IMG/VR virus record: IMGVR_UViG_3300047557_002991
Coordinates: 1-35,603 of that record
Source: a virus
Direction: 5' to 3' (one strand)
DNA: 35,603 bases
How positions within the stretch are numbered: the first letter of the stretch is position 1; each line of letters begins with the position of its first letter. Positions 2,251 to 26,731 of the stretch are shown here, piece by piece. The notes beneath the pieces are model-generated. The model was given only the letters and a program-made list of their open reading frames with translations. It was not told the DNA's origin and did not search any database. Both the position numbers and the translations under genes were made by a program.

Positions 2251-2509
2251 CTTCCTCTACATCAAGATCTTCAAGATACTCAAAGTTCCAAGTGTGCTCG
2301 CAGACACCAATATCAAATCCAAACCTATACACCCAGAACATAATACTCAAAAGAGTTCCAGTTCCAGATTTGATTTGGATGTAAGGCCAACCAGCATAAT
2401 CATTCCAAGAAACTGATGCTTGAAGAAGTGCCCATCGTTTTGTATGAAGAACTTGTGCATACCATTCATGTCCGTAGTCTTCACGATGCTTAAAGGAAAT
2501 TAGTTTCAT
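2231..2509 (-). CDS. Hypothetical protein, 92 aa
   Basis: The protein opens MKLISFKHREDYGHEWYAQV and has a Trp-rich middle (RWALLQASVSWNDYAGWPYI), a hydrophobic stretch GTLLSIMFWVYRFGFDIGV, and an acidic tail (YLEDLDVEEDETSTQ). The hydrophobic GT/GG-L-x-I-x-F followed by FGxD pattern is also present in the 80-aa protein at 1001-1243. I infer diverged paralogues. It overlaps its upstream neighbour by 4 nt. No function is known. Confidence 0.75.
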   Translation of the reverse strand: MKLISFKHREDYGHEWYAQVLHTKRWALLQASVSWNDYAGWPYIQIKSGTGTLLSIMFWVYRFGFDIGVCEHTWNFEYLEDLDVEEDETSTQ

Positions 2510-2700
2510 TGATGCAATTCCTGCGCGAGTTCCAGTAAATCGTTTCTATCCAACACAATAAGATCATTTTGCGCTGTATAGGACTTAACTACATCAGCAG
2601 CAATGAATAGGATTGATGCTACCAATTTTTCTTCTGTGTCTGCACCATTGTTCCGATGTTCCCACACAGAACTCATAAAATCTTTTGCTCTATCGCTCAT
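2506..2700 (-). CDS. Hypothetical protein, 64 aa
   Basis: A small acidic helical protein (MSDRAKDFMSSVWEH..., VASILFIAADVVKSY, LDRNDLLELAQELHQ). It has no clear signal or membrane helix. It overlaps both neighbours by 4 nt. I do not recognise the family. Confidence 0.75.
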   Translation of the reverse strand: MSDRAKDFMSSVWEHRNNGADTEEKLVASILFIAADVVKSYTAQNDLIVLDRNDLLELAQELHQ

Positions 2701-3110
2701 TTTCCTTCTTCCAGATTCGTCAATTCTTCTTCAGTGAGCACAGTTCCCATTGGACCTTTTACCAGTCGTGCAATTTCTTCATCGCGCACTTTCCATTCCT
2801 CAAACTTACTGTGAAGATCTTCATCCATCGTCAGTTCATATTCTTTACAGACCTTACGTTGTTCTTCTTCAGTCACGAAATCATTGAAAACCAGAGACAT
2901 AGCACCACTACGAATACTTGAAGGGCACATGCCAACACACAGCATAAACTTCTCAAAGAGTTTGAAATACTGTTTTGCATTCAGATCTGCAGCAGGTGCA
3001 GTAATCAGGAAATGCTCTTCGGGGACAAAATCATCATCAGAAAAAGAAGAACTATAACTGGGAGTCCAGGTAGAATCAAACTTAAATTGAACTTCTGCGT
3101 TGTAAGTCAT
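2697..3110 (-). CDS. Hypothetical acidic protein, first gene of early-type operon, 137 aa
   Basis: This is the promoter-proximal and largest gene of the left operon. It starts MTYNAEVQFKFDSTWTPSYS, has a beta-like first half (HFLITAPAADLNAKQYFKLF) and a strongly charged helical second half (FVTEEEQRKVCKEYELTMDE; LTEEELTNLEEGK). Three Cys are present. A sigma70-like promoter lies 24 bp before the ATG. The leader has no strong ribosome-binding site. I believe relatives occur in other cyanophages, but no role is known to me. Confidence 0.78.
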   Translation of the reverse strand: MTYNAEVQFKFDSTWTPSYSSSFSDDDFVPEEHFLITAPAADLNAKQYFKLFEKFMLCVGMCPSSIRSGAMSLVFNDFVTEEEQRKVCKEYELTMDEDLHSKFEEWKVRDEEIARLVKGPMGTVLTEEELTNLEEGK

Positions 3111-3133
3111 AGTGAAAGTGTTTCAATACAGAT

Positions 3134-3162
3134 ACTATAAAACCTCCTTCACCCAAAGTCAA
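3134..3162 (-). promoter_or_regulatory. Sigma70-like early promoter
   Basis: On the minus strand TTGACT (3157-3162) is separated by exactly 17 bp from TATAGT (3134-3139). It lies between the 3177-3497 gene and the start at 3110. It is positioned to drive the small-gene run down to 76, recognised by the host housekeeping sigma factor. Confidence 0.8.
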
Positions 3163-3176
3163 GAAGGTGTGTGCCA

Positions 3177-3497
3177 CTAGTCTCGCTGTCTCCAGTCTTC
3201 TGGTTTGTCTCCCGTAAAGAAATCAATGATATCATCAACACCACCACCAAAGTTTGATTTATGTGTTGATGGATCTGGATTTCCCAAATCAAGTTGATTC
3301 AAAAAATCATCCATATCTCCTTCTTGCATATCTGGATTTGCTGCTCTCCTTCTTGCTTGTCTTAAAAGTGTAGCAGCACTCCTATTTGCTTTTGATAACT
3401 TTTCTACCCATATCATCTCACTTAATTCTACAGATTCCCCTTTTACAATTTTCTCGCAAATTGATTCTACACGGAGACGATATTGGGTTGATAACAT
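3177..3497 (-). CDS. Conserved cyanophage protein of unknown function, 106 aa
   Basis: The protein (MLSTQYRLRVESICEKIVKG..., LSEMIWVEKLSKANRSAATL, NPDMQEGDMDDFLNQLDLG, FGGGVDDIIDFF, ending DWRQRD) matches a small protein I remember as conserved across T4-like cyanophages. The N-terminal half is helical and basic; the C-terminal half is acidic with an NPDMQEG turn. It is preceded by its own late-type octamer, which suggests late expression and a possible virion or assembly role; that is inference. No enzymatic motif is seen. Confidence 0.8.
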   Translation of the reverse strand: MLSTQYRLRVESICEKIVKGESVELSEMIWVEKLSKANRSAATLLRQARRRAANPDMQEGDMDDFLNQLDLGNPDPSTHKSNFGGGVDDIIDFFTGDKPEDWRQRD

Positions 3498-4141: not shown

Positions 4142-4513
4142 TCAATCCCAACTGACATTTTGAACTAGGAACCCAGGCATCACATAGGTCCATACACCAA
4201 GTTCTTGATTTCCGCCGACTTTATAATCCCATTTATATTCAAACTTATTATGACTATCCCAGGTCATATATCCCTTCTCCTTATCGAAGCGACCTTTGAT
4301 AGTTAAAGCATGTTTATTAGAATAAATGTTACGAGTGCGAAGTACCCCACCCTTCTCGCGGGTTTCAATTACCACACAAGTATCGGGATACGTTTGAATA
4401 CCTACCTCAAGTAAACAAGGAGTTTCATATCGAAATGGTCGATATGTTTTAGTCTCTTGGGCAAAAGTAGGAGAAGAGAACAAAAGTGCTGCAAGAACAA
4501 TAAGTTTTTTCAT
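4142..4513 (-). CDS. Secreted protein with cleavable signal peptide, 123 aa
   Basis: The start is the ATG at 4513, preceded by GGAGGG; it overlaps the stop of the RlpA-like gene by 4 nt. Residues 1-18 (MKKLIVLAALLFSSPTFA) are a textbook Sec signal peptide with predicted cleavage before QETK. The mature part is beta-rich with two Cys (ETPCLLE, PDTCVVIE) that could form a disulfide in the periplasm. I do not recognise the fold. Coupling to the RlpA-like gene suggests a shared envelope role. Confidence 0.75.
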   Translation of the reverse strand: MKKLIVLAALLFSSPTFAQETKTYRPFRYETPCLLEVGIQTYPDTCVVIETREKGGVLRTRNIYSNKHALTIKGRFDKEKGYMTWDSHNKFEYKWDYKVGGNQELGVWTYVMPGFLVQNVSWD

Positions 4514-4821
4514 CCAACAACCCTCCAACAAACGACAGCATTTCCTTTTTTCACAGACTCAATATGAGCAAAAGCAGCATAAGAGAGATCTAGATCGGCA
4601 TGTGAATATGGACCACGATCATTAACACGTACAATCACTTGTTTACCATTATCTTGATTCGTCACCCTGATTTTAGTGCCCATAGGAAGATAAGGATGAG
4701 CTGCAGTCCAACGATAAGCATTAAACCTTTCCCCGTTAGCGGTGATTTGTCCATGAAATCCGTCTCCTATTCCATAATATGTAGAAAGTCCACAAGTCAG
4801 TCCAGCAATCAATCCAATCAT
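4510..4821 (-). CDS. RlpA-like double-psi beta-barrel protein (possible lytic transglycosylase), 103 aa
   Basis: The pattern STYYG - FHGQITANGERF - TAAHPYLPMGTKIRVTN - NGKQVIVRVNDRGPY - DLDLSYAAF is the core of the RlpA/DPBB family, whose bacterial members cleave peptide-free glycan strands. By spacing, E31, H42 and D68 correspond to the acidic/His residues important in Pseudomonas RlpA, while a usual Asp is Asn here (N34). The protein is almost only the barrel: no SPOR domain, and only a short hydrophobic N-terminus (IGLIAGLTCGL) that is not a clean lipobox or signal. It is coupled to a secreted protein and lies behind a sigma70-like promoter. Whether it is active on peptidoglycan is not shown. 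Confidence 0.85.
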   Translation of the reverse strand: MIGLIAGLTCGLSTYYGIGDGFHGQITANGERFNAYRWTAAHPYLPMGTKIRVTNQDNGKQVIVRVNDRGPYSHADLDLSYAAFAHIESVKKGNAVVCWRVVG

Positions 4822-5036
4822 TTTTCAATCTTCCAGTGTTCATTTCCATTTTTCTGGATCCAAAAGCAGTATTGCTTATTAATAGAAACCAAAAAGAATT
4901 TATCAGCGGTCTCTTGTTCAATCTCACAGGAATGAAGAGACTGCATGATATTCACAAATCGATTCTTTGCTTTAGAACTCAGAGGAGTTACATTTAAGAA
5001 TCTTTTTTTTGTATTTGGAGCTTTTACTGATGCCAT
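4818..5036 (-). CDS. Conserved small cyanophage protein, 72 aa
   Basis: The protein has a basic N-terminus (MASVKAPNTKKRFLNV) and a beta-like C-terminal half (FFLVSINKQYCFWIQKNGNE). I recall similar small proteins in other cyanophages without known function. GGAGG lies about 10 nt before the ATG and a near-consensus sigma70-like promoter lies just upstream, so it is the first gene of the RlpA-like/secreted-protein operon. The basic start might bind nucleic acid, but nothing proves this. Confidence 0.75.
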   Translation of the reverse strand: MASVKAPNTKKRFLNVTPLSSKAKNRFVNIMQSLHSCEIEQETADKFFLVSINKQYCFWIQKNGNEHWKIEK

Positions 5037-5057
5037 TGTTTAAACCTCCACAAAGGT

Positions 5058-5086
5058 ATTTTAAAGAGTTTTCAGAGAGATGTCAA
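5058..5086 (-). promoter_or_regulatory. Sigma70-like promoter, near consensus
   Basis: TTGACA (5081-5086) and TAAAAT (5058-5063) on the minus strand are 17 bp apart. The predicted start near 5051 gives a short leader with a GGAGG site for the 5036 gene. Confidence 0.82.
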
Positions 5087-5215: not shown

Positions 5216-5242
5216 AACCCCCCAAGGTGCTTTTGGGGGGTT
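5216..5242 (-). terminator. Strong intrinsic terminator after the 398-aa fibre gene
   Basis: A 10-bp perfect stem (AACCCCCCAA paired with TTGGGGGGTT) with a 7-nt loop is followed by TTATAATA on the minus strand. It lies 27 bp after the stop at 5270 and separates late fibre transcripts from the early-type genes to the left. Confidence 0.85.
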
Positions 5243-16381: not shown

Positions 16382-17002
16382 TTAAGTATTATACCACTTT
16401 TGCTCTTCCCAAGTCAAGCGTTTTTTAAGTTCTTTATCAAACACCATCAAGTATCTATGTTTCCTACTTCTTTCCCTCCATTCACCTACGGAACCTTTTA
16501 TTTTTCCACGAGAGTGTTTAGTTCCGTCTGAATAATAGAAATCTTTTTTTCTATCAGTGAGACCGTAATACTTAAAGTTGCAAGCACGATAAGTTATACC
16601 AGAATGGAAATCTGAATCAGCATAAGAAAGGATTGCTTTAACTTCAGTATCTTTCCGAAGTTGTCTAATCACTCGTGACACAAACCAAGAAGTGATGTTA
16701 TATTCGCATGACTGAGTACTAGGCTCGATGCAAAGTCTTGAGAGTTCGAAAAGTCCCTGTTGTTCGTTTCTCTCAAGTCCAAATGCTCCTTTCGCAACTT
16801 CGGGTACAGGTAATCCTGTAAATATACAAACTCCCCTGATCCCTCCAATATTTAATGGTGAAAACTCATTTTTTTCAAAAAGACCATAATTGTATCCAGA
16901 TTTGAATCCTTTTGAGAAATCTTTAAGATAATGATATTTAAGTAATAATTCTTCTGCTTGTTTTTTGGTTACTCTGCCAATATAAAAGTCAGTTTTAGCC
17001 AT
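16382..17002 (-). CDS. mom-like: Mom-like GNAT-related DNA modification protein, 206 aa
   Basis: The pattern KYHYLKDFSKGFKSGYNYG (23-41), GVCIFTGLPVPE (57-68), FELSRLCIEP (85-94), SWFVSRVIRQL (105-115), AILSYADSDFHSGITYRAC (123-141) and FKYYGLT (143-149) matches the Mom family, whose phage Mu member converts adenine in phage DNA to a carbamoylmethyl form that resists restriction. Length is close to Mu Mom. The SYAD and HSGITYRA blocks hold residues typical of the family's acetyltransferase-like core. Its start overlaps the end of a 53-aa gene. In Mu, mom is tightly regulated; here a terminator and internal promoter lie just after it. Which base is modified in this phage is unknown. Confidence 0.8.
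   Translation of the reverse strand: MAKTDFYIGRVTKKQAEELLLKYHYLKDFSKGFKSGYNYGLFEKNEFSPLNIGGIRGVCIFTGLPVPEVAKGAFGLERNEQQGLFELSRLCIEPSTQSCEYNITSWFVSRVIRQLRKDTEVKAILSYADSDFHSGITYRACNFKYYGLTDRKKDFYYSDGTKHSRGKIKGSVGEWRERSRKHRYLMVFDKELKKRLTWEEQKWYNT
16388..16417 (-). promoter_or_regulatory. Sigma70-like promoter inside the 3' end of the Mom-like gene
   Basis: TTGACT (16412-16417) and a perfect TATAAT (16388-16393) are 18 bp apart on the minus strand. Both boxes are also codons of the C-terminal residues LTWEEQKWYN, so chance cannot be excluded. Confidence 0.55.
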
Positions 17003-23782: not shown

Positions 23783-26731
23783 TTATCCTCTCATTAGACC
23801 CGTCATACCTGTATTATTTACACGCATATCTCCCACAAAAGATGTTGGACTTTTTCTGGATTGAGAAGAAGAAACATGAACTATTTTTTCAATAGGTTGA
23901 ATTACAATCATCATCCCACCTTCTGAAGAATATGAAGGGTATGACGATAGTTTTGATGTATTTCTTTTAGGTGATTGTTTGGGTACATAACCACCACCCT
24001 GATAAGCAACATGGACATGATCGTTATGATTTCCGGATGGATCATTTCCTGCATGAAGCAATTGAACAGGTTTGACTTTATTCAATTTGTTAAACTCTGC
24101 AATTGCTTTTAAAACAGGTCCTTGTTCATTTGCATTTGCCCCAAGATCAATTGCTCTACCTTGGTAATGTAAAGATCCTTTACTATGTCCCGATGTTAAA
24201 CTATATGGTGGGTGTTCTGGATGTCTATGAATACTTCCCGGAACAACTCCCTTTTTCTTCATAAATCTTCCAAGTTCGCCCGCAATTTTACCGCCTGCAG
24301 CTCCATATCCCGCTCCAGTTTCGAGAACATCTCCTTTTACAATCTGCTTATTTACTTCAGCAGGCATTAATTTTCCTTTTTTAAATGCACCAATGTTTCT
24401 CCCTCTAGGTTCAAATCCAAAGGTATGTCCATATCTACTTACTTCAGTCGAATTATCTAAATGATCATTTGATTTTTCATAAGAATCAGATCTAAAGTTA
24501 TCTCTTGGACCAACAAATGTTCTTGCTTTTTCTTGTTTAGATCTATCCAACAAAGATGCTGCGATTCTTTCGACTATATTTCCACTATATCCTTTATATT
24601 TTTTAGCAAATGCAATCGCCTTTTCCTTTGAATTGATCTGAGACCATTCATTAACACCGCCATAATCCTTCACCGGTTGGAACTGCCCTGGTTGTAAGAT
24701 TACACCCCTAATACTTTTTGGCCATCCTGGTAAAGAAACTCTATTATAAATTGCTTGAGCAGCATCAGCAGCTCCCTGATATCCATCTGCTGGATTTCCA
24801 TTTTCAAATAATGCTGCAGTAACTAATAACCAAAAGTCTGGACTTTCTGAGGTTACTTTAATATTTCCCGGAGTTGTATCAATATCACCGGGAAGAACTT
24901 CATTCTTAGTTTCACCATACTTACCAGGCATCAATTGCTTCTGAACCTCACGAATTGCCTCATCTACTTTTTTCTGAACTAAACTACTCAAAACATTATT
25001 GATATCTTTTGCCAACTGAGCATCATCACGTTTAGTAAGATCTCTTATTCCAGTTCTAGGAACTGACCCACCCGTTTGCATTTTAGAAACTTCTTTCTCT
25101 ATATCGCGGATACTGGATGATATTTGATTATTTGCAATAGAACTTATAAGATAGGAAATACCACTACTTAAATTCTTAACTGCATTTGGATTAAACTTTT
25201 CTCCAAGAGCTATATCAATTGCTCCACCCATTAAATGACCAATTCCAAATGGAATATCTTTTAACTTTTTAGCAACACCCGTTAAAGCTTTATATGGATT
25301 TGGTAGCGATTTAATTTTATTTTCTCTATCTTGAATTTGACTTGCAGTTGGATTTGGGGGTAGTGGCGGCAATAAATTCCACCAAGCACCTTTTTGTTCG
25401 CCCTCAATATCTGTTCTTACCGAAGGATCAGGATATAACTCTCTTATTTTTTTCTTACCGCCAACATCTTTTCCAGGTTGAGATTGTTTTGGTTTTATTT
25501 TTTGTGGTTTTCTTCTTGAAATTTTTATAGTTCTTTTAGGAGCACCTTGAGTTTTTCCACCTCTTGTAACTGAACCACCATTTGCTTTCTTTTGAACTTT
25601 TCCTGTTGGTTTTTTATTTTCAAAGAGAACCTCATAAAGTTTTCCAGCAAGTTCAGCACCAGCCACACCACCAATAAAAGTTCCAAACCCAGGAAGTATT
25701 AACGAACCAACAGCACCCAATAGAATAGTTCCAATTCCTCTAAATGCTGCCTTACCTACAGGATCTCCCAGTGCCCAAGATAAACCAAACTCAATTAATC
25801 CACCAAGAATCGGTAATCTCGATAACGGACCTTTCGCAAGTCTTAAAAGTTGCCTAGTTGCTTGTTTTCCAGCAATCGCACGAGATCCTCCAGAACCAGT
25901 TGTTACAGTCGGTCTTTGGCGAAGAGGATTTCTTATATCGGGTCTACCAGCAGCACCTCCCCCAGAAGTAGTAACTCTTGGTCTTCCACCACTTCCACCA
26001 GATGGTGTAGGTGAATCTGGTTTATAGTTACGGGCATTCCTAGCAAATGTAGTAATAGCGCCAGTAAGTGCCATTCCTCCTATTAAAACATAATTAATAT
26101 ACTCGTTTAACTTGCCAGATAACTTATCAAAATCTTGCTGTGCTTTTTCTCCACCAATGCTCTTTGCAAGATCTCTAACTTTATCATAGGTTTGATATCC
26201 ACGATCAATAAAGTTTACAAATGTTTCAAGTAAGAACTTAAAAATATTCTCAGCAATTCCATAGACCTGAATGATGGTCTTTAAAACACCCTCTAACTTT
26301 GGAAGTTGATCTTGGAACTTTGTAAACAACCAACCAAGTGCAGTAAAGAATATGAACCTCTTAATTCTATCTAAAAACCCCATTGCAGGAACATTAAGTC
26401 CAGGAAGTTTAAACTTTCTTGCTTCTTTTGGTGCTTCTAATTTTTTTTCTTCCTTTTCAAAATCTGCCTTTTCTTTCTGTTTTCTTTTTTTATTTTGATT
26501 TCTTTGTTCTTCACCTAATATTAATTTTAAACGGATATCAATATCCGTTAATGTTTTTACTATTGAACCAGGTTCATCTCTTTTTGCTAAAGGTCCCGCA
26601 AGTTTTTTAGTATCAATTTGTTTAGTCTTAATCGAAAGAGCAGAAGATGCGCCTATTGTACCTATTGAAGATATTTTTGAGAGAGGAGACCCCTTTGAAG
26701 ATGGGAGTAGTTTTTGAGTATTGATTGCCAT
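23783..26731 (-). CDS. Large tail protein with SleB-like and M15-like peptidoglycan hydrolase domains, 982 aa
   Basis: Residues 75-110 are a charged coiled coil, then a hydrophobic block (FLDRIKRFIFFTALGWLFTK) as in the neighbouring 813-aa protein; a Lys/Gly-rich middle follows. Around residues 635-700 a SleB-like cell-wall hydrolase pattern appears: ALFENGNPADGY with E643 as the likely catalytic Glu, AAQAIYNRV, and IRGVILQPGQFQP. Around 840-910 a zinc-peptidase-like pattern appears: HYQGRAIDLG (H855, D862) and NHNDHVHVAY (H902-H907). These could open the cell wall during infection, replacing the lysozyme missing from gp5. The ends resemble tape-measure or hub proteins. Activity is inferred from motifs. 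Confidence 0.75.
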   Translation of the reverse strand: MAINTQKLLPSSKGSPLSKISSIGTIGASSALSIKTKQIDTKKLAGPLAKRDEPGSIVKTLTDIDIRLKLILGEEQRNQNKKRKQKEKADFEKEEKKLEAPKEARKFKLPGLNVPAMGFLDRIKRFIFFTALGWLFTKFQDQLPKLEGVLKTIIQVYGIAENIFKFLLETFVNFIDRGYQTYDKVRDLAKSIGGEKAQQDFDKLSGKLNEYINYVLIGGMALTGAITTFARNARNYKPDSPTPSGGSGGRPRVTTSGGGAAGRPDIRNPLRQRPTVTTGSGGSRAIAGKQATRQLLRLAKGPLSRLPILGGLIEFGLSWALGDPVGKAAFRGIGTILLGAVGSLILPGFGTFIGGVAGAELAGKLYEVLFENKKPTGKVQKKANGGSVTRGGKTQGAPKRTIKISRRKPQKIKPKQSQPGKDVGGKKKIRELYPDPSVRTDIEGEQKGAWWNLLPPLPPNPTASQIQDRENKIKSLPNPYKALTGVAKKLKDIPFGIGHLMGGAIDIALGEKFNPNAVKNLSSGISYLISSIANNQISSSIRDIEKEVSKMQTGGSVPRTGIRDLTKRDDAQLAKDINNVLSSLVQKKVDEAIREVQKQLMPGKYGETKNEVLPGDIDTTPGNIKVTSESPDFWLLVTAALFENGNPADGYQGAADAAQAIYNRVSLPGWPKSIRGVILQPGQFQPVKDYGGVNEWSQINSKEKAIAFAKKYKGYSGNIVERIAASLLDRSKQEKARTFVGPRDNFRSDSYEKSNDHLDNSTEVSRYGHTFGFEPRGRNIGAFKKGKLMPAEVNKQIVKGDVLETGAGYGAAGGKIAGELGRFMKKKGVVPGSIHRHPEHPPYSLTSGHSKGSLHYQGRAIDLGANANEQGPVLKAIAEFNKLNKVKPVQLLHAGNDPSGNHNDHVHVAYQGGGYVPKQSPKRNTSKLSSYPSYSSEGGMMIVIQPIEKIVHVSSSQSRKSPTSFVGDMRVNNTGMTGLMRG

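Follow-up and report, generated by a model that had tools for sequence, protein, structure and literature searches.

Earlier work has remarked on RlpA-like genes in cyanophages or has guessed that they serve lysis (PMC7431792, PMC4916379); for instance, ORF83 of the freshwater cyanophage PA-SR01 is an RlpA-family gene that was proposed to act in lysis (PMC7431792). Among the bacterial proteins, E. coli RlpA is reported to have lost the catalytic aspartate (D168 in P. aeruginosa) and carries a serine instead (PMC9712689). Spackle (gp61.3) of T4 is an early phage product that is exported to the periplasm and contains a disulfide (PMC7677548).

The DNA analysed here, referred to throughout as the window, is a 35.6-kb virus fragment from IMG/VR. 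That it comes from a T4-like cyanophage is seen from its own tail genes and from its relatives, of which the main ones are the Kyanoviridae isolates DSL-LC03 and S-SZBM1. Comparison of one of its operons with related loci indicates that T4-like cyanophages carry at least two kinds of RlpA: an exported one, whose gene in S-PM2 and S-CRM01 neighbours that of the lysozyme, and one that lacks a signal, in most cases accompanied by a secreted but uncharacterised protein and often placed under a conserved early-type promoter.

The operon and its promoter

Three minus-strand genes lie in tandem, consecutive ones being joined by 4-nt ATGA overlaps. The leading gene (4818-5036) encodes a small protein of 72 aa that matches phrog_1653 (E 2.4e-12) and is present in 19 cyanophage records. 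It is followed by an RlpA-like double-psi beta-barrel (DPBB) protein of 103 aa without a signal peptide (4510-4821), hereafter the barrel, and by a beta-rich protein of 123 aa and no known family (4142-4513), hereafter the partner, which begins with a Sec signal peptide, MKKLIVLAALLFSSPTFAQ (4457-4513). This arrangement, with its 4-nt overlaps, its conserved small gene at the head and the clear signal peptide on its last product, is as the first-pass annotation described it. On the same strand, 3' of the upstream tail gene, lies a probable terminator hairpin, AACCCCCC...GGGGGGTTTTAT (5216-5242; fold -20.4 kcal/mol, z -2.49), to which a T-rich tail is attached and which probably sets the tail gene apart from the operon. 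Since this terminator-like hairpin closes the preceding gene and a promoter stands just upstream of the small gene, the three genes probably have a transcription start of their own.

The promoter (5058-5086, minus strand) is of the sigma70 type and early-like, with a -35 TTGACA at 5086-5081, a 17-bp spacer and a -10 TAAAAT at 5063-5058, which together give 11 of 12 matches. One such score is weak evidence when taken alone: the window holds five sites scoring at least 11/12 where a Markov null predicts about 1.5. The pattern TTGACA-N16-18-TAnnnT-ACCTTTG is, however, carried by 32 distinct sequences from the fetched related loci, and across 13 records the true promoter pattern gave 11 matches while a reversed-pattern control gave none; the near-consensus promoter seen in the first pass is thus kept among relatives.

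Conservation continues downstream of the -10 box into an unusual extension, ACCTTTGTGGAGGTT (5043-5057, minus strand), a candidate operator or leader element, and relatives show the extended form TAnAAT-n-ACCTTTGTGGAGGTT. Within the extension lies a dyad, ACCT-N6-AGGT (ACCT at 5057-5054, AGGT at 5047-5044), which surrounds the presumed start site and is possibly an operator or a 5' leader hairpin; GGAGG at 5049-5045 is likely a ribosome-binding site. A GGTT further downstream, outside the query, is near-invariant among the IMG/VR matches listed (108-118 of 120 per position).

Scanning IMG/VR for the promoter element returned at least 120 stretches. In about three quarters (at least 88 of the 120 listed, loci L212-L331) the element lies between gp55 and the neighbouring gene, antisense to uvsW, while other listed elements sit 5' of a thyX operon or of phrog_1653 genes. 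The isolate S-SM2 has such a site between gp55 and SSM2_125, again antisense to uvsW, in the form TTGACA-N17-TAcAAT-n-ACCTTTGTGGAGGTTGA (107649-107683, minus strand; L346:2650-2684). A search of Rfam gave no match for the antisense-uvsW element, and we consider the gp55/SSM2_125 element likely to be an early antisense promoter that is conserved in T4-like cyanophages; in T4 itself an early antisense transcript covers uvsW. Because the element of the operon is shared with these sites, its early class is supported, though short of proof. S-SM2 also has the element ahead of its copy of the small gene, where no RlpA pair follows, and the element therefore did not evolve for the barrel and its partner. 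No late-type motif adjoins the barrel gene. It is the promoter that suggests early timing for the operon, and the early-type label given to it at first holds as a sequence type that relatives conserve.

The RlpA-like barrel and its missing signal

The barrel passes the curated cut-offs of both PF03330 (DPBB_1; E 1.7e-22, 79.9 bits against 28.8) and TIGR00413 (99.3 bits against 82.15), which bears out the RlpA-like identity first proposed for it. The C-terminal SPOR domain of cellular RlpA is missing, the 103 aa holding the DPBB only, and the structure prediction reached a pLDDT of 56. In alignments E31, H42, D68 and D78 are all present. The first three had been listed before; D78, which had been left off that list, is invariant in an alignment of 36 relatives and falls opposite the Ser of 'ISLS' in E. 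coli RlpA. Since this is the residue that E. coli RlpA has lost, the case for an active site is stronger than the first-pass annotation held. That annotation also treated N34 as a departure from the usual acidic residue, which was mistaken: the aligned position is Asn or Asp across the clade, and it is Asn also in PA4485, in the A-1(L) hub and in a cyanobacterial protein. The barrel is under strong purifying selection (dN/dS 0.083), and we regard it as a putative lytic transglycosylase.

To judge by sequence, nearly all of about 75 distinct clade members have an N-terminus with neither n-region charge nor lipobox nor cleavage site, in the forms M-I-G-L-I-A-G-L-T-C-G or M-I-E-T-L-I-A-G-L-T-C-G. 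A lipobox reading of 'GLTCG' was rejected, the residue that precedes the Cys being T, A, V or M. Relatives in S-PM2, S-CREM1, S-CBS4 and S-CRM01 do have N-terminal signals. The signal-less clade is monophyletic in the tree (98/95) and lies within a wider clade (99/96) that holds the signal-bearing S-PM2-type and S-CBS4 proteins; as it is nested among signal-bearing relatives, its signal peptide was probably lost. Cys10 and Cys98, common to the exported S-PM2-type proteins, stayed invariant in the barrel clade, which hints that the barrel still ends in an oxidising place. Without a signal peptide it has no obvious access to peptidoglycan before the membrane opens, and the earlier suggestion that it remodels the envelope early in infection is unsupported for a clade with this ancestry.

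The remoteness from lysis genes that had been remarked on was borne out: in six relatives 50 kb or more separate the barrel gene from a GH24 lysozyme. For the exported RlpA type of S-PM2 and S-CRM01, the GH24 lysozyme and a phrog_3316 lipoprotein-like gene both lie within about 2 kb, and one 222-kb record contains both RlpA types. Taken together, the early-type promoter and the distance from lysozyme suggest a role beyond simple cell bursting. In one relative the DPBB domain is found within a tail protein, and with the signal-less and the lysozyme-linked exported forms this makes at least three ways in which T4-like cyanophages use the domain.

We note several further observations on these genes and their surroundings. 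In L347 (reverse complement 2354-3182) a signal-bearing RlpA has behind it a lipoprotein-like and possibly spanin-like protein of phrog_3316, and the signal-less pair is also in the record. At 23783-26731 the window encodes a tail protein that contains a cell wall hydrolase domain (Hydrolase_2) and in which a stretch resembling an M15 peptidase can be made out by eye; it is a relative's version of this protein that has the DPBB domain. T7-like freshwater and estuarine cyanophages (L207, L209 and L210) carry a signal-less RlpA-like gene amid capsid genes, adjoining psbA in two of the three. The window also encodes a Mom-family DNA modification protein (16382-17002; PF25680, E 4.8e-26), and in DSL-LC03 the Mom-like gene adjoins a restriction endonuclease gene.

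The secreted partner and its pairing with the barrel

Relatives of the partner were found in 250 IMG/VR stretches and, among annotated phages, in DSL-LC03 only. Cys33 and Cys46 are invariant among them, and nearly all keep the n-region Lys, the hydrophobic core and the AxA-type end of the signal; dN/dS is 0.09 for the mature part, so that the partner too is under strong purifying selection, and 0.445 for the signal peptide. From these features the partner is presumably exported to the periplasm and, unlike the barrel, would be positioned in the envelope during infection. Its AlphaFold model (pLDDT 78) is all-beta apart from the signal helix. The best VIA Z in a fold comparison was 6.2 (nitrobindin), below a meaningful level, and Foldseek gave no significant match (best E 0.1), so modulation by the partner is a guess from its location. 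Membership of a known family was rejected, Pfam, NCBIfam, PHROGs, PADLOC and PDB sequences having yielded no convincing match. A cellular origin was likewise rejected, as a pattern scan of genome contigs found no relative; a profile run against 386 cyanobacterial genomes gave one spurious match, with stops.

The first-pass annotation had advised a search for the gene pair in other cyanophages, and the pair proved to be conserved, though not absolutely. Among 80 RlpA-seeded viral loci the partner lies directly downstream with the same 4-nt overlap in 47, both genes are within about 400 bp in 67 (the 47 and 20 more), and the partner is absent from 13; seven overlaps with shorter partners, first classed as 'reversed order adjacent', were assigned to the overlap count by hand. 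Seeding with the partner, we found no RlpA within about 4 kb in 31 of 80 loci, in some of which it may merely fall outside the fetched stretch. Each query contributed its 80 best matches, which enriches the co-occurrence for close relatives, and the contigs include some that nearly duplicate others. The pair stands behind at least five unrelated families of upstream genes and in a few loci the gene order is reversed, so the association survives rearrangement. The idea that a frameshift joins RlpA to the gene before it was rejected, since the upstream genes differ between loci. S-SZBM1 has the barrel without the partner, and in DSL-LC03 the two genes are separated by 5.8 kb. On this comparative evidence the pair is a conserved and often overlapping feature of freshwater T4-like cyanophages.

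Possible roles and comparison with known systems

Our preferred reading, held tentatively and at less than even confidence, is that the operon forms an early-transcribed envelope module in two compartments, a stored transglycosylase and a periplasmic modulator. The partner would be exported from early infection onwards, fold in the periplasm as a disulfide-bonded beta-protein and modulate either peptidoglycan or an enzyme that cuts it. The barrel would be a lytic transglycosylase stored in the cytoplasm until a holin or something similar opens the inner membrane, and only then would it reach the wall, form its disulfide and help the separate GH24 lysozyme; translation through the overlap would hold the two proteins in proportion. 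Against this, the short hydrophobic N-terminus of the barrel (MIGLIAGLTCG) could be a cryptic export signal, and the pairing of the two genes is not absolute. We speculate further, and with distinctly more doubt, that the two form a wall-control system found only in phages, in which a dedicated periplasmic regulator of a new family, co-translated with the signal-less transglycosylase, either holds that enzyme in check up to lysis or acts against rival phages by blocking the domains with which their tails cut the wall.

Alternatively, the barrel itself might be exported, by its hydrophobic N-terminus or by another route, and remodel peptidoglycan with the partner during infection, as was first proposed. 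An early-type promoter would suit this, an oxidising compartment is suggested by the two Cys that never vary, and a hydrophobic N-terminus of 8-10 residues is kept in the clade, similar ones being found in the T7-like S-CBP3, DSL-LC07 and S-SRP01. We nevertheless think it unlikely, since that N-terminus has neither n-region charge nor cleavage site, the S-SZBM1 barrel has only six residues ahead of its Cys, and relatives bear true signal peptides of a sort probably lost in this clade. Superinfection exclusion is a further candidate that we rate as low: the partner might bind the wall-cutting domains of incoming tails in the manner of Spackle, an early periplasmic inhibitor of tail lysozyme. 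The early-type promoter, Sec signal and Cys pair fit the anatomy of Spackle (PMC7677548), wall-cutting tail domains do occur in this phage group (the Hydrolase_2 of the window, the DPBB of its relative), and lytic transglycosylases are known to have protein inhibitors (PMC10746161); such a role, however, leaves the paired barrel unexplained, and Spackle, being alpha-helical, has no sequence relation to a partner predicted to be beta.

Two other roles for the barrel seem to us improbable. It might be packaged in the tail as a virion component, like the DPBB of the A-1(L) hub and of some cyanophage tail proteins; it matches hub 8kea, a DPBB is found in the tail protein of the relative and in S-CBWM1, and the RlpA gene of S-CREM1 lies amid baseplate genes, but the genes of the barrel clade lie amid small genes, behind an early-type promoter and away from any adjacent late-type motif. 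Nor do we give much credence to a non-enzymatic cytoplasmic binder, for instance an inhibitor of proteases akin to the papain inhibitor of Streptomyces, which has a DPBB fold and to which the barrel has a weak match: the lack of a signal peptide would agree with it, yet every RlpA catalytic residue including D78 is kept at the low dN/dS given above, and the NF041659 score is far under its cut-off.

The finding of at least two RlpA kinds makes it testable whether cyanophages act ahead of lysis on the walls of their hosts or against rival phages. PA-SR01, whose RlpA-family gene was proposed for lysis, has no lysozyme, whereas relatives of the window have a separate GH24 lysozyme. The partner appears to be like Spackle in its periplasmic signal peptide and invariant Cys pair, and its early-type promoter would suit an early product; it differs in its predicted beta fold, Spackle being compact and helical. 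The RlpA-like proteins of S-PM2 (p158), S-CREM1 and S-CRM01 share with the barrel a single DPBB, the catalytic motif and the Cys pair at 51-63% identity; they have N-terminal export signals, and none of the three phages has this secreted partner. Compared with bacterial RlpA, the septal ring lytic transglycosylase of TIGR00413, the barrel is a protein of 103 aa without lipoprotein signal or SPOR domain, in which the DPBB nevertheless scores over the cut-off and the catalytic Asp is present as it is in P. aeruginosa RlpA.
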